Below are positions 8,768 through 59,599 of a stretch of 64,000 nt of DNA, in pieces. Position 1 is the stretch's first letter, and every line of letters begins with the position of its first letter. The stretch is from Olsenella sp. oral taxon 807 (GTDB taxonomy: Bacteria; Actinomycetota; Coriobacteriia; Coriobacteriales; Atopobiaceae): contig NZ_CP012069.2 of the NCBI RefSeq assembly GCF_001189515.2, positions 2,108,001-2,172,000 on the forward strand. Reading direction: 5' to 3'. The notes beneath the pieces were generated by a model. It was not told the origin of the DNA. It saw only the letters and a program-made list of their open reading frames with translations, and searched no databases. The position numbers and the translations under genes are program-made.

Positions 8768-9532
8768 ATGTTCTGCCCGGGCCGCAACATGAGAAACTCT
8801 GACAAGGGCGGGTCCTGCGGGGCCGACCTGTCAAGCACAAGCACGGGTGCGCCCGGATCCCAGGTGACCGCCCAAGCTCCGGCATCCGGCGCGTCCACCC
8901 CGTCTAGGCCCACAACCGCAACGCACAGGCGTGTTGGGCGCGTCATCGCGGGAGTCATTGCGGTCGCCATCGTCGTCGCGGCGGGACTGAACACAAGCTG
9001 GTTCGGCCTAGCCGGGCCCCACCTTGTACCGGGAAACTACACCCTCAGCGGCTCGTCGGCATCGAACACGATAGTCGCCTCCGTCACCCAGGGCAATCAC
9101 GTCAGCCTTGAATACGAGGGGCACAGCTGGGTGGGAGACGCGCAGGTCAGCCGAGTGGGGAAGGACCATCTTCACGTGCGGGTACCGATCGCAGAGGAGG
9201 GTGGCCAGCTCTCGGGCTGCATGCTTAACCTCGTGATCCCGCAGGGCGTCCCTGGCAGCGTCATCGGAACCTGGGCGATGTGGTTCACGGACGAGAATGG
9301 CTTTCCAAACCTTGGCGGCATTGCGTGGGCGGTGATCGAGGATGGCGACACCCTCAGAGGCGGGGTGGTCTCGTCTTCCGATGCGCCGGCCGCAGCTAGG
9401 TCCCTTGGGATGGGCACCTTCCAGGGCGATTCCGGCGCGAAGCCAGGCAGCTGGACCAGGCAGGACGACGGCAGCTTCGCGCTGACCTTCCCTGACAGCG
9501 ACGGCGCCCTCACGTTCCGATACCACAGGTGA
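8768..9532 (+). CDS. Zinc-ribbon-family membrane-anchored protein, ribbon degenerate
   Basis: First open member of a paralogue family of unknown function. The plan is a short N-terminal zinc ribbon, a Pro/Thr/Ala-rich linker, one transmembrane helix (about residues 60-76), then a ~170-residue domain of alternating polar/hydrophobic strands predicted outside the cell, ending in SWTRQDDGSFALTFPDSD and FRYHR. In this copy the ribbon has lost most ligands: MFCPGRNMRN replaces the MFCPSCGTRN of its sisters, and the second knuckle keeps a single Cys. It is 254 residues long. GGGAGGCACCC before the ATG is the ribosome binding site. It may be a gene in early decay. Confidence 0.75.
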   Translation: MFCPGRNMRNSDKGGSCGADLSSTSTGAPGSQVTAQAPASGASTPSRPTTATHRRVGRVIAGVIAVAIVVAAGLNTSWFGLAGPHLVPGNYTLSGSSASNTIVASVTQGNHVSLEYEGHSWVGDAQVSRVGKDHLHVRVPIAEEGGQLSGCMLNLVIPQGVPGSVIGTWAMWFTDENGFPNLGGIAWAVIEDGDTLRGGVVSSSDAPAAARSLGMGTFQGDSGAKPGSWTRQDDGSFALTFPDSDGALTFRYHR

Positions 9533-9607
9533 GCAAACGTCCATAGCGGCGCTCGATGACATCGGATGCGTAGCCGCGTGAGGGCGCGCCGCACCAACTT
9601 CGGTCGG

Positions 9608-9722
9608 CGTACGAGCGGGATGGGGAACCTGCCCGTTACAGGCGACCGGGGTGTAGAATTGTGGACAACGATCCACATGGACGGCGTGGGCGGCGTCCCG
9701 CGCCGCGATACGGGAGGCACCC
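9608..9722 (+). promoter_or_regulatory. Leader of zinc-ribbon gene 2 (identical to the next one)
   Basis: These 115 bases are identical to 10622-10736, and identity continues about 23 bases into the coding region. A likely -10 box TAGAAT lies at 9654-9659. The predicted 5' UTR of ~55 bases holds a small hairpin (GTGGA/TCCAC) and the GGGAGG ribosome binding site. Confidence 0.65.
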
Positions 9723-10583
9723 ATGTTCTGCCCAAGCTGCGGCACACAAATCCCCGACGGAAGCAGGCTCTGCGGGTCCTGCGGGGCCGACCTGTCGGCA
9801 AGAGGCACGGGCGCGCCCGCAGCACCGGCGCCTGGACAGGTGCCAGTGCTGCGCGTCCTCATCCCCGCCAAGCACGCGTCTGCGGCGCGCGGCCGCGTCA
9901 TCGCGGGGGTCGCCGTAGCCGTCACTGTCGCCCTCGTCGTCGCGGTGGGGCTGCACACTGGCTGGTTCGGCCTCGCCGGGTCCCACCTCGTACCAGGGAC
10001 CTACACCTTCAGTAGCTCATCGGTATCGTACGAGATGGTCCTCTTCGTCACTGAGGGCGATCACGTCGGCCTCACGATAGGGAAAGACAGCTGGGTTGAG
10101 GGAGACGCACGGGTCAGCCAGGCGGGAAGTGACCACCTTCACGTACAGGCGCCGCTCACAACCGCAGTACTGCATGAGCCTGGGGCTACTACTACCACAT
10201 TCGAAGAGATGGGGGTCAGCCGGGCAGGCATCGCGGCGCTCGGACTCGGCGATGACCAGCCCTCGGGCTACACGCTCAACCTCGTGGTCCCACGAGGCGC
10301 CCCTGACAGCATCGTCGGGACCTGGGCATGGTGGATCGAGGACGAGAGGGGCTTGCCACATGAGAGCGAGGACTATTTTGGGTGGGTGGAGGTCGAGGGC
10401 GACGGCAGCTTCAGAGTCGGAGACGTTTCGTCCTCCGACGCAGCGGCTGCGGTCGAGTCCCTCAAGGCGGGCAACTTCCGGGGCAACTCTGAATTTATGT
10501 CAGGCAGCTGGGCCAGACAGAGCGACGGCAGCTTCGTGCTGACCTCCTACGGTAACGCCGTCACATTCCAGTATCGTAGGTGA
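9723..10583 (+). CDS. Zinc-ribbon-family membrane-anchored protein
   Basis: This 286-residue paralogue has an intact zinc ribbon: CPSCG at residues 3-7 and CGSCG about 15 residues later, as in zinc_ribbon_2 proteins. A Pro/Ala linker follows, then one transmembrane helix (about residues 58-80) ending in GWFGLAGSHLVPGTYTF, which opens the predicted outside domain. That domain is larger than in gene 1 because of an insert around HEPGATTTTFEE. It ends in SWARQSDGSFVL and FQYRR. No catalytic motif is visible. It is presumably a surface protein; whether it binds a ligand or another protein cannot be told from sequence. Confidence 0.8.
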   Translation: MFCPSCGTQIPDGSRLCGSCGADLSARGTGAPAAPAPGQVPVLRVLIPAKHASAARGRVIAGVAVAVTVALVVAVGLHTGWFGLAGSHLVPGTYTFSSSSVSYEMVLFVTEGDHVGLTIGKDSWVEGDARVSQAGSDHLHVQAPLTTAVLHEPGATTTTFEEMGVSRAGIAALGLGDDQPSGYTLNLVVPRGAPDSIVGTWAWWIEDERGLPHESEDYFGWVEVEGDGSFRVGDVSSSDAAAAVESLKAGNFRGNSEFMSGSWARQSDGSFVLTSYGNAVTFQYRR

Positions 10584-10621
10584 GCGAGTCGTCACCGTAG
10601 CGCGCCATAGATCCCATCAGA

Positions 10622-10736
10622 CGTACGAGCGGGATGGGGAACCTGCCCGTTACAGGCGACCGGGGTGTAGAATTGTGGACAACGATCCACATGGACGGCG
10701 TGGGCGGCGTCCCGCGCCGCGATACGGGAGGCACCC
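10622..10736 (+). promoter_or_regulatory. Leader of zinc-ribbon gene 3
   Basis: Base-for-base the same as 9608-9722, including the TAGAAT box and GGGAGG site. The two genes behind these leaders differ in most of their coding sequence, so the leader has either been copied recently or is under selection. Confidence 0.65.
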
Positions 10737-11570
10737 ATGTTCTGCCCAAGCTGCGGCACGAGAAACCCCGACGGAGTCCGGTTCTGCAGGGCCTGCGGAA
10801 CCAACCTATCGGGCAGAAGAGCTGGTACGACCCAAAGGCCAGTGCCCGCCGCGTCGGCGACACCCACGCCCGCAGCCCAGGCGCCCACTCCTGCCGTACC
10901 TACGGGCAGGGTCATCGGACAGGGCAGGCGCAGGTCTAATCCCTTCGCGGCAGTGGCGGCCATGGTCGTGGTAGGCATCTTCGTTCTCGCGGTGGGATTG
11001 CAGGTAGGATCGAGCACAAGCTGGTTCGGCCTCACCAAGCCCCACCTCACGCCGGGAACCTACACCCTTAGCCGGAGCTTGTCGATCCTCTTCAACAGCT
11101 GGTTGCCGCCAGCCACAATGACCGTCTCTGTCGCCGAGGGCGATCGTGTCAGCTTCACGGTCGAGGGAGCTAGCTGGGTGGGAGACGCACAGGTCAGCCA
11201 AGCCGGGAAGGACCAGCTTCACATACAGGTACCAATCGCAGCGAAAAATGGCCAGCCCTCGGGTCACTCGTTCAACTTCGTGGTCCCGCAGGGCGCTCCA
11301 GACAGCGTCACTGGGATCTGGGCATCATGGACCACAGATGAGAATGGCCTGCCAGATAACGGCGTCGCATGGGCGATGATCGAGGACGGCGGCACCTTCA
11401 GGGCGCAATCCGTTCCAAACCCCGACGCGGCGGCTGTAGCCGAGTCCCTCAAGGCGGGTAACTTCCGGGGCGATCCCGACAGGAAGCCAGGCAAGTGGGT
11501 AAAGCGAGAGGACGGCAGTTACAAGCTAACTCTTAACGATTACACCTATGTGTTCCAGTACCAAAAGTGA
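10737..11570 (+). CDS. Zinc-ribbon-family membrane-anchored protein
   Basis: 277 residues. The N-terminal ribbon CPSCGTRNPDGVRFCRACG is complete (four Cys). After a Pro/Thr/Ala linker comes one transmembrane helix (about residues 75-95), then STSWFGLTKPHLTPGTYTL and the family's outside domain with SWVGDAQVSQAGKDQLHI, matching gene 1 closely, and the C-terminal FQYQK. It shares its leader with gene 2, but its outside domain is closer to gene 1, which suggests recombination among the copies. Confidence 0.8.
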   Translation: MFCPSCGTRNPDGVRFCRACGTNLSGRRAGTTQRPVPAASATPTPAAQAPTPAVPTGRVIGQGRRRSNPFAAVAAMVVVGIFVLAVGLQVGSSTSWFGLTKPHLTPGTYTLSRSLSILFNSWLPPATMTVSVAEGDRVSFTVEGASWVGDAQVSQAGKDQLHIQVPIAAKNGQPSGHSFNFVVPQGAPDSVTGIWASWTTDENGLPDNGVAWAMIEDGGTFRAQSVPNPDAAAVAESLKAGNFRGDPDRKPGKWVKREDGSYKLTLNDYTYVFQYQK

Positions 11571-11760
11571 ACAAGAACCCATCGACACGCTCGGTAAGGT
11601 CGGGCGCAACGCCATGGGAGGCTCGCGCGTCGTCGACTCCGATTGGCACGCAAGTCGACGGGACCTTGCTCTCCGCAGGTGGTCCCAAGTGTAGAATCTC
11701 AGAAGAGACATCGCGCGGGCGGCACGGGCGGGGCGCGCATCAGGACGACGGGAGGCACCC

Positions 11761-12665
11761 ACGTTCTACCCGAGCTGCGGCACGAGAAACCCCGACGGGA
11801 GCAGGTTCTGCGGGTCCTGCGGAACCGACCTGTCGAGCAGAGGAGCCGGTACGACCGCATCCCAAGCGGCCACCCAGGCTCCGGCGCCCGGCGCACCCGC
11901 CTTTGCCAGACCCGCAGCTGCGGCGCGTGGGCGCAGCGCCGGTCGCGGCCGCGTCATCGCAGGGATCGCTGCGACCGTCGCAATCGCCCTCGTCGTCGCG
12001 GTGGGGCTGCGCACAGGCTGGTTCGCCTCGCCCAGCCCCATCTCACGCCAGGGACCTACACCTTCACCAGCTCCCTCGTGGACAGCTCGCTTTCGTATAC
12101 GATGGTCCTCTCTGTCGCCGAGGGCGATAGTGTCATCTTCACGTTTGAACGAGGGCAGAGCTTTGGGGGAAACGCACGAGTCAGCTGGGCCGGGAGGGAC
12201 CACCTTTATGTGCAAGTGCCGGTCACGCGTGCGTCGCTGGGTCTTGGAGAGAACAGCAAACCCGAATTCGTCAATGTAAAGGATAGCCTGAAAAGCGTCA
12301 CGGCACTCAGTCTCGGCGACGACCAGCCCCTGGCCGGCTCGATCCACTTCGTGTTCCCACGGGGCGCCCCAGACAGCATCGTCGGGACCTGGGCAATGTG
12401 GATCACGGACGAGAATGGCTCGACGGTACCGTATGGAGATATGAACCTTTTCATATGGCAGAGATACGAGGATGACGGCAGCTTCAGAGACGGGTACGTC
12501 CCGTCCTCCGACGTGGCGGCCACAGTCGACTCCCTCAAGGCGGGCACCTTCCAGGGAAACTCCAATGTGGAAGTGTCAGGCAGCTGGACCAAGCAGGACG
12601 ACGGCAGCTTCGTGCTGAACACCCCCTACGGTAGCTCCACCAACACGTTCCAGTACCACAGGTGA
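11761..12665 (+). pseudogene. Zinc-ribbon-family gene 4, broken
   Basis: Three lesions are visible against the sister genes. The start ATG is ACG at 11761. The first ligand Cys is Tyr (FYPSCG for FCPSCG). Near 12026 one base is missing in TGGTTCGCCTCGCC compared with TGGTTCGGCCTCGCC, shifting the frame just after the transmembrane helix. The downstream frame then runs intact from HLTPGTYTF to FQYHR and TGA. Another frame opens upstream at 11643, but it is not homologous in its first part. The leader keeps the GTGTAGAAT block. Confidence 0.85.
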
Positions 12666-52547: not shown

Positions 52548-52960
52548 GGTTCCTTCTCCTCTCTCTGTTGTCGCCCCCTGCGACGACAAGCTTCAAACCA
52601 TTCTAGGGAAGGGTGTAGGCCCCCACCAGGGACGGAGGCGTACGACGGTGTTATCTACATGATATTCACTAACTTATTAACTACATGAGTCAATCCACGC
52701 GCGGAACGAAGACACGCGGACGCGGATCCCACGCCTCAGGGGCCACCGCTTAAGGAGCGCAACAGAAACGTAGTTATGCCGCTTGCGCTGGTGACATGCA
52801 GCCCCAAGTCGGCTAGGATGTGACACAGTGGCGCCTTAGGCTGACAATTGGTTGTGCACCGTGATCACGAGTGCGGTCCCAAGTCAGGTAGGATGGAGCA
52901 AGGGTGGATGGAACATGCCAATGACCAAGAGCATGCGGCGGCTGCGGAGAGGTGACGCGC
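52548..52960. other. Divergent intergenic region
   Basis: 413 bases between the dehydrogenase and the TPR-like pair. It has an AT-rich patch (TATTCACTAACTTATTAACT at about 52.66 kb) where the dehydrogenase promoter probably lies. No clear Rex-type operator is seen. Confidence 0.45.
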
Positions 52961-54049
52961 ATGACGTTTGACCCGCACAGAGAGGATTATCAGAGGATGG
53001 GGCTGCGCTTTGCACGCTCCCTTGACGGCCAGAGTCCCAGCGCGGCCGCACGTTCCTTCTCGAGCTTTGGCAGGCGCTTCGTCCAAAACCGTGACTCGCT
53101 GCCCCAGTGTGATGAGGATCGTGCCTTTCATTTGGTGGTCAGTGCCGCCACGCTGATCGACTACGAGCTCCCTTTCGCTGATGACGACCATGCGGAGTCG
53201 ATCATCCAGAAGGCCCATACGATCCTGAGTGAGGCCCTTAAGCTCGACCCCATGAACCCCGATGCCCTGCGCATGGAGCAGGCCTCCACAATCCCCTCGT
53301 TCGAGGGCTACTACGACTACCTCCTCGAGGGACGTGCCCAGATCAAGGAGAGCTGCGAGAGGCGCCGCGCGGGCGCCCAGAGGGCCAATGGTGGTGAGCG
53401 CGCAGAGCTCGCGCAGCTGCTCGCGATGAGTCCCTACCTGCGCTGGCTCCATGCCCTCGCGTCAAAGGCCGTGGTCTGCGGGCACAATCACGCCGCCTTG
53501 GAGTTTTGCGACGAGCTCCTGAGACTTGATCCCACCGACCGGGCAGACGCCCGCTTCACCGCAGCCATCGCCTATGCCAAGCTCGAGGATGAGGAGGGAC
53601 TTCTCGCCCTGAGGGGGCGCATCGCGTGCCTCGACGTCGCACGTCCCCGCGAGCCAAAGGACGCCTGGCTACAGCTCGCACTCTGCGCCCTCGCGTACAA
53701 GCGCTACGACCTCTCGGGTGCGGCCTCCATCGTAGAGGACCTCTGCGAGAGCTATCCGCACGCGGCCCTCACCCTGGTCATGCAGAAGGAGCTCCCCGAC
53801 GGCGTCTTCGCACGCCTGTCAGTACCGGCCCTCAGCGAGGACGAACTGATCCTCGCCGTCTCAGAGGCTACCGTACTGCTACAGGAGGGGCGAGACTCTG
53901 CGGCGCGTGGTAGCTTTGGTGCCTGGATATCGCGCGAAGCCGAGAAGCGCCTTACCGAGCGGGAGCGCAGGATGCTCGAGCTGGATATGGCAGAGACGCC
54001 GTCGGGCAACTCTGCGGGGGGCAGACCCGCAGGCGGGAACAAGAGCTGA
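52961..54049 (+). CDS. TPR-like helical protein A
   Basis: 362 residues of helical repeats (IIQKAHTILSEALKLDPMNPDALRME, in blocks; AALEFCDELLRLDPTDRADARFTAAIAYAKLEDEEGL, in blocks). The LDP turns are typical of TPR motifs. No signal, membrane helix or enzyme motif. ATG at 52961 has GAGAGGTGACGCGC upstream; a GTG three codons earlier is possible. The stop overlaps the next start (TGATG), and the second protein is similar, so they look like a coupled, duplicated pair. Function unknown, probably a scaffold. Confidence 0.75.
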   Translation: MTFDPHREDYQRMGLRFARSLDGQSPSAAARSFSSFGRRFVQNRDSLPQCDEDRAFHLVVSAATLIDYELPFADDDHAESIIQKAHTILSEALKLDPMNPDALRMEQASTIPSFEGYYDYLLEGRAQIKESCERRRAGAQRANGGERAELAQLLAMSPYLRWLHALASKAVVCGHNHAALEFCDELLRLDPTDRADARFTAAIAYAKLEDEEGLLALRGRIACLDVARPREPKDAWLQLALCALAYKRYDLSGAASIVEDLCESYPHAALTLVMQKELPDGVFARLSVPALSEDELILAVSEATVLLQEGRDSAARGSFGAWISREAEKRLTERERRMLELDMAETPSGNSAGGRPAGGNKS

Positions 54050-55077
54050 TGGATGCCCATGAGGAGCTTGTCCTAAGGATCGCGACGCGGCAGCGCAAGC
54101 AACTGGGACTCTCGAGCGCAGGCTATGGCGAGCTGCTGATCGCGGTGCGCAATGATCCGAGGCACTTCGTGGACAGTCCCGAGGACGAGGCCATGGCGCT
54201 GATGGCCAAGGCGCTCAAGCAGTACAACGACTCGCGTGGAGGGGATGACCTCCTCGATGACGCGGAGTACATGCAGGCCCGCACCAGGCGCATGGCTCGC
54301 ATGCGTCGTGACTGCGCCGAGGCACTGGCGATCGATCGAAACTGCATCGATGCCCACCTATGCGACATCATCGCGAGCGACGCAGAGCCAGATGCCCTCC
54401 TCGACCTCCTACTGCCCCTCGAGGCGGATGCAGAGAGGCTTCTTGGACCCCACCTGCATGAGGCGAGCCGTCCCGCAGGCTCCGGCGTCGAGGCAGGACA
54501 CGTCGACGAGATCATCAGCGTCTCGGACGACCTTTGGAACGACGTCTTCGCTCGTCCGCTGCTGCGCGTGCGAGCAACGATGGCACGCGCCTACTTTGAC
54601 GCGGCCCGCTATCGGCTGGCCTGTGCCGAGGCCCTCGGCACCATAGACCTCTCTCCTTTGGACCTCCTAGGTGCCAGGCACACGGCTGCCCTCGCCTACG
54701 CGCGCCTTGAGGACGAGCAGGGGTTCGAGTCCCTGGACGCGCGCTTTGGTCGGCGTGGCAACGCATGGCAGAGCCTCGCCCGCATCATCCTGCTCTTCAA
54801 GCTGGGGCGGCCAGGCGCGGCCAAGCGTGCCTTGCATGGCTTTGACCAGCTTTGCGAGGGGGGCGTCTATGCCCTGCTCAGGCCCATCCTCATTGACACG
54901 TACATGCCCGACAGACCCGCTATCGCGCCGTATAGCTTCGAGGAGGCCACACTCGCCGTCCACGAGGCGGACCCCATTATCGTGGACGTTCCCGACCTCC
55001 TCGCATGGGTGGAGTCACAGGAGGACATGGCTGCCTCGGCCCTGCGCTTTGCCCGGCGCTCAGGCTTTGACTGGTAG
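54049..55077 (+). CDS. TPR-like helical protein B
   Basis: 342 residues, paralogous to the preceding gene: the same helical architecture, the shared ARHTAALAYARLEDEQGFESL segment against ADARFTAAIAYAKLEDEEGLLAL, and the same SEDELILAVSEA/SFEEATLAVHEAD element near the end. The first half also has EDEAMALMAKALKQYND. Starts one base inside the previous stop. Converges on the transketolase gene 48 bases away. No family recognised beyond TPR-like. Confidence 0.72.
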   Translation: MDAHEELVLRIATRQRKQLGLSSAGYGELLIAVRNDPRHFVDSPEDEAMALMAKALKQYNDSRGGDDLLDDAEYMQARTRRMARMRRDCAEALAIDRNCIDAHLCDIIASDAEPDALLDLLLPLEADAERLLGPHLHEASRPAGSGVEAGHVDEIISVSDDLWNDVFARPLLRVRATMARAYFDAARYRLACAEALGTIDLSPLDLLGARHTAALAYARLEDEQGFESLDARFGRRGNAWQSLARIILLFKLGRPGAAKRALHGFDQLCEGGVYALLRPILIDTYMPDRPAIAPYSFEEATLAVHEADPIIVDVPDLLAWVESQEDMAASALRFARRSGFDW

Positions 55078-55125: not shown

Positions 55126-56151
55126 CTACGTCAGGTTCTCCGCCTCGATCCTGCCTGCGATGGCCTCGACGATGCCGTGCGCATCGAGTCCGGCCCGGGC
55201 AAGGAGGGCGTCTCTCTCATCCGCCTCGAGGTAGCGATCCGGCATGCCGAGGCGCAGGAGAGGGACGCCTACGCCAAGGTCGCACAGATGCTCCGCGATG
55301 GCGGATCCGAGACCGCCGAGCACACTGTGCTCCTCGACGCTCACCACGAGCCCACACGACGCAACGCCGTCGAGCGCAGCTACGTCCAGTGGCTTTATCG
55401 TCGCCATTTCGATCAGCTCACAGGAGATCCCCCTCGCGGCGAGCAAGTCCACTGCCGCGAGCGCCTGCGCGCAGAGCGTCCCACACGCGACCACGCAGAC
55501 GCGTGACATCCTCCCTGTGGCAGCACCCGAACGTGCCGACCTCAGGGTCTGCGCCCGACCGATGACGCGCCCAACGCCGCAGGGATGGAGGTTGACTCCG
55601 CCGACATCGTTCATCCGCACGTAGGCGGGGCGGGGCCTCTCGGCAAGCTCCATGAGCACGGCCGCGAACTCGGCGTTGTCCGAGGGACATACGACCGTCA
55701 CACCCGGCACCTGGCGGGTGCAGCCTATATCCTCGAGCGCCATGTGGCTCGCACCTAGGACCGCAGAGTCACAACCACAGCTCACGCCCACGAGCGCCAC
55801 GGGCGAGGCCATGATGCCCAAATTGACGCGGAGCTGGTCAAGGACGCGCGAGGTGATGAAGATCGCATAGGATGGCGCGAACACGCAGAAGCCCTCGTTG
55901 GCCAGGGCCGCCGCAACCTCGACCTGGTTCTGCTCGGCTATGCCACACTGCACGAAGCCATCGGGTCTCAGCTCGCGCATGCGGTCGAGGTTGAGCCTGC
56001 GCCCATAGTCCGAGACGACGACGGTGAGGTCTGCATCCCTCTCGGCGATGCGACCCATGATTTCGCCAAAGACCTGCTTATGAGAGAGCGTGGCCAGGCG
56101 TGCAGCATCCGCCGCGCCAACCAAGAGCCCTCCGTCTGCCCCCTCCGCCAC
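55126..56151 (-). CDS. Transketolase, C-terminal subunit
   Basis: 341 residues with the pyrimidine-binding domain (LTVVVSDYGRR, FVQCGIAEQNQVEVAAALA with the TPP-activating Glu, FAPSYAIFITSRVLDQLR) and the C-terminal transketolase domain (VCVVACGTLCAQALAAVDLL, EMATIKPLD, VSVEEHSVLGGLGSAIAEHL). It pairs with the TPP-binding half encoded by the overlapping gene to form a split transketolase of the pentose phosphate type. GTG at 56151, immediately after an out-of-frame TAA, with GAGAGGGGGGG upstream. Overlaps the upstream gene by 74 bases. Confidence 0.9.
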   Translation of the reverse strand: MAEGADGGLLVGAADAARLATLSHKQVFGEIMGRIAERDADLTVVVSDYGRRLNLDRMRELRPDGFVQCGIAEQNQVEVAAALANEGFCVFAPSYAIFITSRVLDQLRVNLGIMASPVALVGVSCGCDSAVLGASHMALEDIGCTRQVPGVTVVCPSDNAEFAAVLMELAERPRPAYVRMNDVGGVNLHPCGVGRVIGRAQTLRSARSGAATGRMSRVCVVACGTLCAQALAAVDLLAARGISCELIEMATIKPLDVAALDGVASCGLVVSVEEHSVLGGLGSAIAEHLCDLGVGVPLLRLGMPDRYLEADERDALLARAGLDAHGIVEAIAGRIEAENLT

Positions 56152-57841
56152 TTACGCCCCCCCTCTCAAGCGCCGCAAACTCCCTGACGGCCTGCCTGTA
56201 GGTTTCCTCCGAGAGCGCGTTATCATGCCACGTGACGTTGTTCTCGGCAAACGAGAGACCCTTGCCCTTCACTGTGCGCGCGACGACAGCACGCGGCCGC
56301 TCGGAACGTACGGACAGCGCATCGACGAGTGCCAGCACGTCGTGGCCATCGACCTCTGCCACCTCGAAGCCAAACGAGGCAAACTTACGTTGGATGGGTC
56401 CGTTGTCAAAGACCTGGGAGGTAGGGCCGTCAAGCTGCATGCCATTGGCATCCACAATCACACAGAGGCTCGAGAGGCGCATGAAACCGGCAAGGCCGGC
56501 GGACTCCCAGACAGCGCCCTCGTCGCACTCGCCATCCCCCACGATACAGAAGACCCGCGAGTCCTTGTGCCGACGACGCAGCGCCAGTGCAAGGCCCGTC
56601 GCATAGCCAAGTCCCATCCCCAGGCTACCGCCCGACATCTCGATGCCACGCGTCGGGTCGCGGCGGGGGTGCTTAAAGAGGACCGCATCCGGACCGAAGA
56701 GGCCCTTGTCCAGGTCATCTTTGCTGATAAGGCCCGCCTTGAGCATCGCAGGATAGAGCGCCACCGAAGCGTGGGCCTTCGAGAGGACGAAGCGATCCCT
56801 TTCGTCCCACGGCGTCGCGTCCTTGCCTGTGCGCAAGATGCATCCAAAGAGGACCGAGCTGATCTCGGCAAGAGAGAGCGCACCGCCGATGTGGAAGGGG
56901 GAGCCCTGATAGCGGTGGGCGATCTCGATAACGCCACGGCGCACCTCGAGGGCCCCTCGTTCAAGACGGCGGCGAAGCGCCCTGCGCTCATCACGCACCC
57001 TATCAACGCTCGCCTCACGTGGCGTCTCGAGGTGGCCGGATGCGAGCTGATCCTGCAAGGACTCAGCCACGACCGACGTCCCGGGACGTAGCCACGTGAG
57101 GCTCCACTCTATGGTGGTTCCGTTATCAAGACGGATGTCCTGCTCAAGGACGAGTGTGGGATCACTCGACCCACAGGCGAGCAGCGCCGCGTGCTCCTCG
57201 CCTGCGGGACGCGACGAGTAGTGCACGGTCGAGTCACCAATGGCACAGCAAGAGCAGCGCTCGACGGCGTCAAAGAGCGATTCGCGCTCGAAGTCCGAGT
57301 CCTCAAGACCGGGACAGGCGGCGAGATTCGACCAGCTCTCCTGACAGACCATGGGGGCACCCGCGACGCTGCGAACCCGACGCATGAAGAGGGTCGGACT
57401 CCCCTGCCCTACGCCCAGGTGCGCAGCCACAGCCTGTGGGGCGCCCATCACCTCACGAGAGAGGACCCTGGTGCTAAAGTCCATGCCCCGCTCGCGCAGG
57501 AGCACCGCGAACGAGAGCGGGCTGCGTGTCGCGGGCCTGGGAATACCGCCTTCGGACACGAAGCTGCCGCTACCCTTCTTGGTGATGAGGTAACCCTCTT
57601 GCACCAACGTCTGGATCGCCCGACGGACCGTGCCGCGGCTCACGCCATAGCGCTCGCAGAGCTCGGCCTCAGAGGGGATGGCCTCTCCGTTGCGCCACGC
57701 GCGGGCATCTATCTTGTCTCGCAGGAGCATCTCGAGCTGCACGTACAGCGGACTCGCGAGCCTGTCCGAGAGCATGTCATCATCGCCCGCATCGGCACGA
57801 AGGGCGCCCGGCGTGGGGAAGTAGAGACCTTGACGTACCAT
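56078..57841 (-). CDS. GntR/UTRA regulator fused to transketolase N-terminal subunit
   Basis: 587 residues in one frame. Residues ~28-98 are a GntR winged helix (PLYVQLEMLLRDKI, EAIPSEAELCERYGVSRGTV, LVQEGYLITKKGSGSFV). Residues ~108-262 are a UTRA ligand-binding domain (FMRRVRSVAGAPMVCQESW, LVLEQDIRLDNGTTIEWSLT). After a ~25-residue helical linker, 295-555 is the TPP-binding half of transketolase: RYQGSPFHIGGALSLAEI, DRFVLSKAHAS, SGGSLGMGLGYATGLA, TPP motif GDGECDEG ... NG (435-467) and VKGKGLSFAENN. ATG at 57841 with GAGGGAGCGTC. It looks like a metabolic enzyme half that can bind its own promoter, listed at 57870. Confidence 0.9.
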   Translation of the reverse strand: MVRQGLYFPTPGALRADAGDDDMLSDRLASPLYVQLEMLLRDKIDARAWRNGEAIPSEAELCERYGVSRGTVRRAIQTLVQEGYLITKKGSGSFVSEGGIPRPATRSPLSFAVLLRERGMDFSTRVLSREVMGAPQAVAAHLGVGQGSPTLFMRRVRSVAGAPMVCQESWSNLAACPGLEDSDFERESLFDAVERCSCCAIGDSTVHYSSRPAGEEHAALLACGSSDPTLVLEQDIRLDNGTTIEWSLTWLRPGTSVVAESLQDQLASGHLETPREASVDRVRDERRALRRRLERGALEVRRGVIEIAHRYQGSPFHIGGALSLAEISSVLFGCILRTGKDATPWDERDRFVLSKAHASVALYPAMLKAGLISKDDLDKGLFGPDAVLFKHPRRDPTRGIEMSGGSLGMGLGYATGLALALRRRHKDSRVFCIVGDGECDEGAVWESAGLAGFMRLSSLCVIVDANGMQLDGPTSQVFDNGPIQRKFASFGFEVAEVDGHDVLALVDALSVRSERPRAVVARTVKGKGLSFAENNVTWHDNALSEETYRQAVREFAALERGGVSGGGGRRRALGWRGGCCTPGHALS

Positions 57842-57869
57842 GACGCTCCCTCAAAGTAGACATATTATG

Positions 57870-57879
57870 TACAGCTGTA
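57870..57879. promoter_or_regulatory. Operator-like palindrome ahead of the GntR-transketolase gene
   Basis: TACAGCTGTA is a perfect 10-base palindrome 29 bases upstream of the start, set between a possible -35 (TTGTTC) and an AT-rich -10 area (ATAATATG) on the minus strand. It is a plausible site for the GntR domain encoded just downstream. Confidence 0.5.
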
Positions 57880-58046: not shown

Positions 58047-58118
58047 GTCCCCATCGTCTAGAGGTTAGGACATCGCCCTTTCAAGGCGACGACACGAGTT
58101 CGATTCTCGTTGGGGGCA
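58047..58118 (+). tRNA. tRNA-Glu (anticodon TTC)
   Basis: Acceptor GTCCCCA/TGGGGGC with A73, D-arm CGTCTAGAGGTTAGGACA, anticodon arm TCGCC-CTTTCAA-GGCGA (TTC), T-arm ACGAGTTCGATTCTCGT. A -10-like TATACT lies at 58032-58037. Confidence 0.95.
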
Positions 58119-58206
58119 CCTCTGTCTGGCGCGAGCGGTCCCGAGCTTCTCCTCGAGGGCCGCTTTTTTCGACTCCTCGGGGCTTTTCTGCCTCTTCGCG
58201 TCTCCT

Positions 58207-58296: not shown

Positions 58297-58377
58297 CGCG
58301 AGGGCGCGTGGCCGACCCGATGCCTCCGGTCTGGTGGTCCGGCCCGATGCATCCGGTCGGAGGTCTCACGTAGGTGG

Positions 58378-58459
58378 TAGGGGCGGTGGGACTCGAACCC
58401 ACAATCCTTTCGGCCGTGGATTTTAAGTCCACTGCGTATGCCAGTTCCGCCACGCCCCC
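58378..58459 (-). tRNA. tRNA-Leu (anticodon TAA)
   Basis: Class II tRNA, 82 bases: acceptor GGGGGCG/CGCCCCT (G1-U72 wobble) with A73, anticodon arm GTGGA-CTTAAAA-TCCAC (TAA), variable arm CGGCCGAAAGGATT, T-arm GTGGGTTCGAGTCCCAC. Reads TTA, a rare codon in such a GC-rich genome. Confidence 0.94.
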
Positions 58460-58606: not shown

Positions 58607-59599
58607 TCACCTGCAGGGGACGCTTAGGGTCGGCTCCCAATCGAGGGGAGCCTCTGCCTTGGCAGCGGCCTGACCGGCACAGGTCGCTAGACCAAAGAGC
58701 AGGTCGCTCTCGCTCACCGTGAGAAGATCAAAGTGTGTCTGGGCCATGAGCTCACTGATGGCGATCGCACCCGCAAGGATCACGGGAGCACGCTTGGCCT
58801 GGATGCCGGGCAGCGCTGCCCTCTCCTCGACCGTAAGGGCGGCCAACTTCGCGACCATGGCGTCAACACGTTCGCGCGGGAGCACGCTACGATGTACCTG
58901 GGTGGCATCGTAGGGCTCAAGTTTCTTCTCGAGCGCGACAAGACTCGTGGCTGTACCGCCTGTCACGACAAGGAGCGCGGGTTTCTTCTCGAGTATGTGT
59001 TCCTTAGCGATGGCCACAGAGAAAGACTCACGCGCAAAGGAGCGCGCGGCCTCTATGTCGCGCCCAGAGGGTGGGTCCGACGCGGAGAGGAAGCGCTCGG
59101 TGATGCGCCTACACCCGACATCGGTCGAGCGCACGCACTCGAGCTCGAGCACACCCCCACCCATCATGCTACCGAGGGCAAGCTCGGTGGATCCGCCACC
59201 GTTGTCCGCAACCAGGATACGACTGCCCACAAAGTCTCGCGCGACGCCCAAGAAGGTGAGAGACCCCTCCACCTCACCGGAAATGACCTGCGGATCAAGG
59301 CCACGCCGGTACAGCTCAGCGAGTAGGTCTGAGGCGTTCGAGGCATCGCGAGCGGCAGAGGTGAGCGTGCAGCAGGTGTACGTAGCACCCGCATCCAAGG
59401 CGATCTGAATGTAGGCGTCAACACAGCCCATGACACGACCGCGCGCGTCGTCTGAGATGCGGCCCGAGGCAGAGAGACCCTCCCCCAAATCACAGATAGT
59501 CGAACGCTTGATCAGACGCAGCACCTGGGCGTCCTCGACGTCGGCCACGGCAAGACGTACCGTCACGGTTCCAATGTCAATACAGGCTACCCGTTCCAT
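58607..59599 (-). CDS. Ppx/GppA-family phosphatase
   Basis: 330 residues of the ASKHA fold. N-terminal phosphate 1 loop IDIGTVTVRLAVAD (where most members have DxGSNS), VISGEVEGSLTFLGVARDF, the second loop VADNGGGSTELALG and VVTGGTATSLVALE. Members hydrolyse polyphosphate or pppGpp; short versions like this lack the C-terminal HD domain. ATG at 59599 lies inside the end of the ftsB-like gene by 13 bases, so they are coupled. This ftsB-ppx linkage is usual in actinobacteria. Confidence 0.92.
   Translation of the reverse strand: MERVACIDIGTVTVRLAVADVEDAQVLRLIKRSTICDLGEGLSASGRISDDARGRVMGCVDAYIQIALDAGATYTCCTLTSAARDASNASDLLAELYRRGLDPQVISGEVEGSLTFLGVARDFVGSRILVADNGGGSTELALGSMMGGGVLELECVRSTDVGCRRITERFLSASDPPSGRDIEAARSFARESFSVAIAKEHILEKKPALLVVTGGTATSLVALEKKLEPYDATQVHRSVLPRERVDAMVAKLAALTVEERAALPGIQAKRAPVILAGAIAISELMAQTHFDLLTVSESDLLFGLATCAGQAAAKAEAPLDWEPTLSVPCR

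Follow-up and report, generated by a model that had tools for sequence, protein, structure and literature searches.

Fusions of a transcriptional regulator to an enzyme are already known as a kind, with MocR, PutA and BirA as examples. In the MocR/GabR/PdxR regulators, a GntR winged helix is joined to a domain of aminotransferase fold, while PutA and BirA are bifunctional enzyme-repressors in which a single polypeptide both catalyses a reaction and binds its own operator. Within the window (the whole stretch of DNA that was analysed, 64,000 nucleotides), we found a gene whose product likewise joins a GntR winged helix to an enzyme fold, but which departs from the MocR type in also having a UTRA domain and in having as its enzyme partner a TPP transketolase half that needs a second subunit. 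The PLP-dependent aminotransferase-fold C-terminal domain is absent from this fusion, its C-terminal domain being Transketolase_N, and MocR-type models match mainly its winged helix. The combination of enzyme and own-operator repressor in a single polypeptide that we propose for it recalls PutA and BirA (the latter also named in PMC5882156), although the DNA-binding and enzyme families are unrelated and the enzyme here is half of a heteromer.

With the GntR/HutC repressors NagR/YvoA and DasR, the fusion shares a winged helix, a UTRA domain and, by prediction, an operator near the promoter, but it adds an enzyme half of ~300 residues after UTRA. With 6yak, a split-chain transketolase whose deposition describes an active alpha2beta2 heterotetramer, it shares the placement of the TPP-binding half and the C half on two chains and the conserved catalytic motifs, except that its N half forms the tail of a transcription factor. 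Unfused GntR-UTRA orthologues (~44-52% identity) with the same operator belong to a galactitol-type PTS operon that is widespread in the class (L123, L158-L187; GntR-UTRA, TIM-type isomerase, YjbQ, GatB, GatC, a small protein, class II aldolase and GatA) and lie in some genomes in the same chromosomal slot as the fusion, but there the regulator is free and transketolase is missing. Searches of the open literature turned up no case in which half of a heteromeric TPP enzyme is fused to a GntR-UTRA repressor, and a survey of the domains that accompany prokaryotic transcription factors makes no mention of transketolase in its main text. The arrangement seems to be a combination of enzyme and transcription factor that has not been described before, although subscription journals may mention it or a database may list the bare architecture.

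The fusion gene (56078..57841, minus strand) encodes 587 aa from an ATG at 57841. The initial annotation had proposed a one-chain GntR-UTRA-transketolase fusion and had named a stop or frameshift between the halves as the finding that would undo it; the open reading frame runs uninterrupted with neither, and Pfam assigned all three domains to the product, GntR at residues 32-95 (9.7e-18), UTRA at 117-252 (2.2e-26) and Transketolase_N at 317-552 (7.9e-34). A probable flexible linker (~253-278) separates UTRA from the transketolase TPP-binding half (~279-556). Both halves are confident in an AlphaFold (AF2) model (mean pLDDT 77, pTM 0.50), with low confidence at residues 258-277, a probable flexible linker. 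The best Foldseek matches were 6yak, with which the structural alignment showed 38% identity, and the GlcNAc regulator YvoA/NagR. An N-terminal peptide with an FPTP motif recurs across several genera, in support of 57841 as the start. Production of a free transketolase half from an internal start was considered and rejected, as start codons within the linker are not conserved in position and lack consistent ribosome sites.

The fusion is present at full length in 25 of the 140 genomes of the window's family, including the window's own (a single contig of 3.21 Mb), and spans nine genus-level groups (g1, g4, g5, g7, g15, g23, g25, g26 and g34), the relatives being at 50-66% identity. This check of conservation in related Coriobacteriia, which the initial annotation had called for, favoured its proposal, and its second potential refutation, that the two parts are always separate genes in relatives, fails. 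A 26th carrier, G043, is interrupted exactly at an N of its assembly, and this coincidence led us to reject it as a natural split. Since 25 separately assembled genomes show the same full-length frame, the fusion is not an assembly slip, and a chimera of assembly or read-through was rejected on that ground. In its broadest form, in which a chimeric gene call arose through misassembly, read-through or the remnant of a decayed regulator before an ordinary transketolase, such an explanation could draw on a one-base frame oddity at a seven-G run at the 3' end of the window gene. We nevertheless consider it scarcely credible against open frames in 25 assemblies at the identities given, invariant helix-turn-helix residues, the conserved FPTP start peptide, a retained operator and a single broken case that breaks at an assembly N.

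No fusion was detected outside the family among the 398 class and 396 phylum genomes sampled, sets that overlap each other and the family set. Beyond Actinomycetota, one pattern-based scan of genome contigs returned free transketolases and one short GntR match, and no plasmid record covers most of the fusion protein in one place. The Cryobacterium plasmid pA10BH1 (L231) carries GntR and a split transketolase as separate genes, with triose-phosphate isomerase TpiA, class II aldolase, dihydroxyacetone kinase DhaK/DhaL and an RpiB-type isomerase as neighbours, a set of parts pointing to C3-C4 sugar metabolism.

The partner gene (55126..56151, minus strand, 341 aa) encodes the transketolase pyrimidine-binding and C-terminal domains (Pfam Transket_pyr 1.0e-20, Transketolase_C 1.1e-22), in agreement with the earlier assignment of the C-terminal transketolase subunit to the overlapping gene, and retains the catalytic GIAEQN motif with its catalytic Glu. 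Wherever the junction is readable, a transketolase C half always follows the full-length fusions with a stop/start overlap of 4-8 nt, and in the relatives a GAGGAGG-type ribosome site precedes the ATG of the partner. Given this short overlap behind such a site, translation of fusion and partner in step, and hence their translational coupling in the relatives, is very likely. Compared with these junctions, the overlap of 74 nt in the window is peculiar to this assembly. Comparison of the sequence and junctions traced it to the seven-G run (56157..56163, minus strand), beyond which the fusion frame passes the stop that the relatives would predict, a TAA of the neighbouring frame at 56152-56154. 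The frame shift at this run accounts for both the 74-nt overlap and a tail of ~30 residues, and the run itself may reflect a sequencing error or slippage.

Motif discovery in 18 diverse fusion promoters yielded TTGTACAYAACNTGTCC, which is not a simple palindrome, with a log-likelihood of 141 compared with 55 for shuffled sequence. Using a matrix built from these sites and a score of >=16 as a match, the operator was identified in 23/25 fusion promoters, a partly circular proportion, since fusion promoters also served to train the matrix. Matches occurred in 12/22 promoters of unfused GntR-PTS orthologues, which lay outside the training set, and in 0/10 unfused-transketolase promoters, compared with a background of 0.7% of random 400-nt windows. 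Two genomes, G039 and G040, keep the fusion and lack a recognisable operator. G027 has the 17-mer TTGTATACTACTTGTCT before its fusion, G024-G026 have the identical one before their free regulator, and in G164, from another family, a site lies just upstream of the PTS operon itself.

In the window, motif discovery, the matrix scan, genome pattern searches and comparison with unfused relatives together place a predicted 17-bp operator, CTGTACATAATATGTCT, at 57858..57874 (minus strand). The expectation of a DNA element in the fusion's own promoter stood, although not in the form first given: the palindrome TACAGCTGTA is present at 57870..57879 (minus strand), but conservation between genomes covers no more than its last five bases, where it runs into the left end of the operator, and it was rejected as the operator itself. 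In six fusion loci, a -10-like hexamer precedes the first operator by 10-12 nt (chance ~1.25% each), so that the operator would cover the transcription start, as expected for a repressor; no such hexamer was seen at that spacing in the window promoter.

Genome-wide sites were sought by pattern, and in the window's 3.2-Mb genome the sole exact match was the fusion's own promoter. Across the 14 genomes searched in this way, 11 had the operator at the fusion promoter, and matches elsewhere were few and no more frequent than those of a control pattern; the operator is essentially confined to the fusion promoter. Additional exact matches in G041, G052 and G023 were no commoner than those of the reversed control pattern, and a wider regulon was rejected, these sites serving as leads only. 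One perfect operator-like site (L226 8446-8462, contig 40 of G041) precedes a DRL-type oxidoreductase in the context of a glucitol-type PTS operon (GutM, EIIA-Gut, EII-Gut) and could be a second target or a chance occurrence.

The chromosomal neighbourhood is fixed across much of the family and consists of genes that we take from their sequences to be mfd, a small septum-type protein, mazG and ppx, then the slot itself, a convergent paralogous pair and an iron alcohol dehydrogenase. In the window, the conserved slot is marked upstream of the fusion by a presumed Ppx/GppA-like gene (58607..59599, minus strand), with tRNA-Leu (58375-58459) and tRNA-Glu (58047-58120) between it and the fusion. 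By synteny, the other boundary in most relatives is the paralogous, uncharacterised pair (52952..55077, plus strand), for which Pfam gave no match. Three states of the slot were observed: the fusion with the transketolase C half; transketolase N and C halves without a regulator (group g35, G020); and a free GntR-UTRA orthologue (G021, G036, G042, G024-G026, G001, G002), followed in most of these genomes by TIM-type isomerase, YjbQ, GatB and GatC, with class II aldolase and GatA nearby. Within the PTS operon, YjbQ is thiamine-phosphate synthase-like, and the small protein had no Pfam match in L123.

Whether fused or unfused, slot transketolases group in a single clade (100/100), to which the canonical copy does not belong. 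An orphan GatB adjoins the slot transketolase in group g34 and G020 and lies near the transketolase in G128, which ties this enzyme to the PTS system. From these comparisons, the GntR-UTRA part of the fusion is best read as descending from a sugar-PTS operon regulator. In AU tests, a single origin of the fusion was rejected neither by the GntR-UTRA tree (p = 0.27 with all fusions, 0.52 without G005) nor by the transketolase tree (p = 0.53), and repeated independent fusions are therefore not claimed.

Residues expected to matter in both halves, to which the initial annotation had assigned DNA-binding, effector and TPP-binding roles, are conserved across the 25 fusions, with one genome, G041, as the exception for the catalytic set. 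The recognition-helix residues S68, R69, G70, T71 and R73 are invariant (25/25), as are R155 and R157, which align with Arg133 and Arg135 of NagR. These two arginines are among the phosphate ligands of NagR (PMC4333415). At S188, aligned to NagR Ser165, the fusions have Ser or Thr, while NagR Thr90 aligns with A112 of the fusion and the nearby S110 is invariant. In the transketolase N half, the TPP/Mg motif GDG...N and the catalytic histidines are intact in 24/25 fusions, with H317, H357, H391, D436, G437 and H539 lost in G041 and N466 present in all 25.

Taken as a whole, these features suggest that the fusion is probably a bifunctional transketolase subunit that represses its own gene until a sugar phosphate from a dedicated pathway induces it. 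Its N-terminal GntR-UTRA part would act as a HutC-type repressor, the ligand-free dimer occupying the operator where its own gene begins, so that the two-gene transketolase operon is kept low. The C-terminal half and the coupled partner would assemble into an alpha2beta2 transketolase, the twofold symmetry of which would suit a GntR dimer. Binding of a sugar phosphate from the dedicated pathway in the UTRA pocket could then release the operator, so that enzyme and repressor, made in fixed proportion, would rise together in simple negative autoregulation.

The initial annotation had instead suggested direct feedback between pentose-phosphate flux and transcription, which was not upheld. A second split transketolase in the genome, 42% identical, adjoins transaldolase and is likely the pathway enzyme; with this copy elsewhere and the operator local, the fusion is unlikely to control the main pentose-phosphate pathway, and local autoregulation of a dedicated transketolase fits the evidence better. 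A role for the fusion as a global regulator of the pathway would be in keeping with its transketolase chemistry and a UTRA pocket of the sugar-phosphate type, but we judge it very improbable, given an operator essentially restricted to its own promoter, the canonical transketolase beside transaldolase and the location of orthologous regulators on PTS operons.

G041 keeps a full-length fusion and the coupled partner (L109 9152-10951), with GntR and UTRA regions 69% and 67% identical to those of the window, yet its transketolase half is without H317, H357, H391, the GDG motif and H539. In the transketolase tree its branch measures 1.61 compared with 0.12 for its sister, the window, while its GntR-UTRA branch (0.40) lies inside the range of the other fusions. 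The frame of the altered half is open, with a pairwise dN/dS of ~0.3 at which synonymous sites are near saturation. Because of these lost residues, transketolase activity would not be universal among the fusions; the enzyme half of G041 may be either decaying or now serving regulation, and the protein is a candidate pseudoenzyme regulator.

An arrangement of the trigger-enzyme type, in which the transketolase half serves as a sensor, either in place of its enzymatic role or in addition to it, would explain the retention of a dead enzyme half and its partner beside a regulator of normal divergence. TPP or ketose substrate occupancy would then alter operator binding, joining catalysis and transcription allosterically, with the enzyme half of G041 as a dead sensor. 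We hold this only tentatively, since the case comes from one genome, its synonymous sites are near saturation, it could be one of early decay, and the catalytic residues are kept in all other fusions. Somewhat more plausible, though still short of an even chance, is that regulator and enzyme act independently and that the shared chain merely fixes their ratio and co-expression. The linker at 258-277 is predicted to be disordered and varies in length and sequence among genera, so that tight mechanical coupling is not evident, and unfused relatives of each half occupy the same slot; conservation across nine genera and the dead-enzyme relative, however, suggest more than convenience.

Under the favoured reading of an autorepressing transketolase subunit, half of a heteromeric enzyme of central metabolism is predicted to form the tail of a repressor. 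A free regulator with a PTS operon, a free split transketolase, the fusion and a fusion with a dead enzyme all survive in one family, and across these evolutionary states the operator tracks the regulator domain. One small protein complex could thus serve to address what gives rise to such fusions and whether occupancy of the enzyme can be read out as DNA binding.

Elsewhere in the window, positions 8768-12665 hold a tandem array of three to four paralogues, which start with a zinc ribbon of the MFCPSCG type followed by a hydrophobic segment; the fourth called open reading frame of this set may be in the wrong frame.
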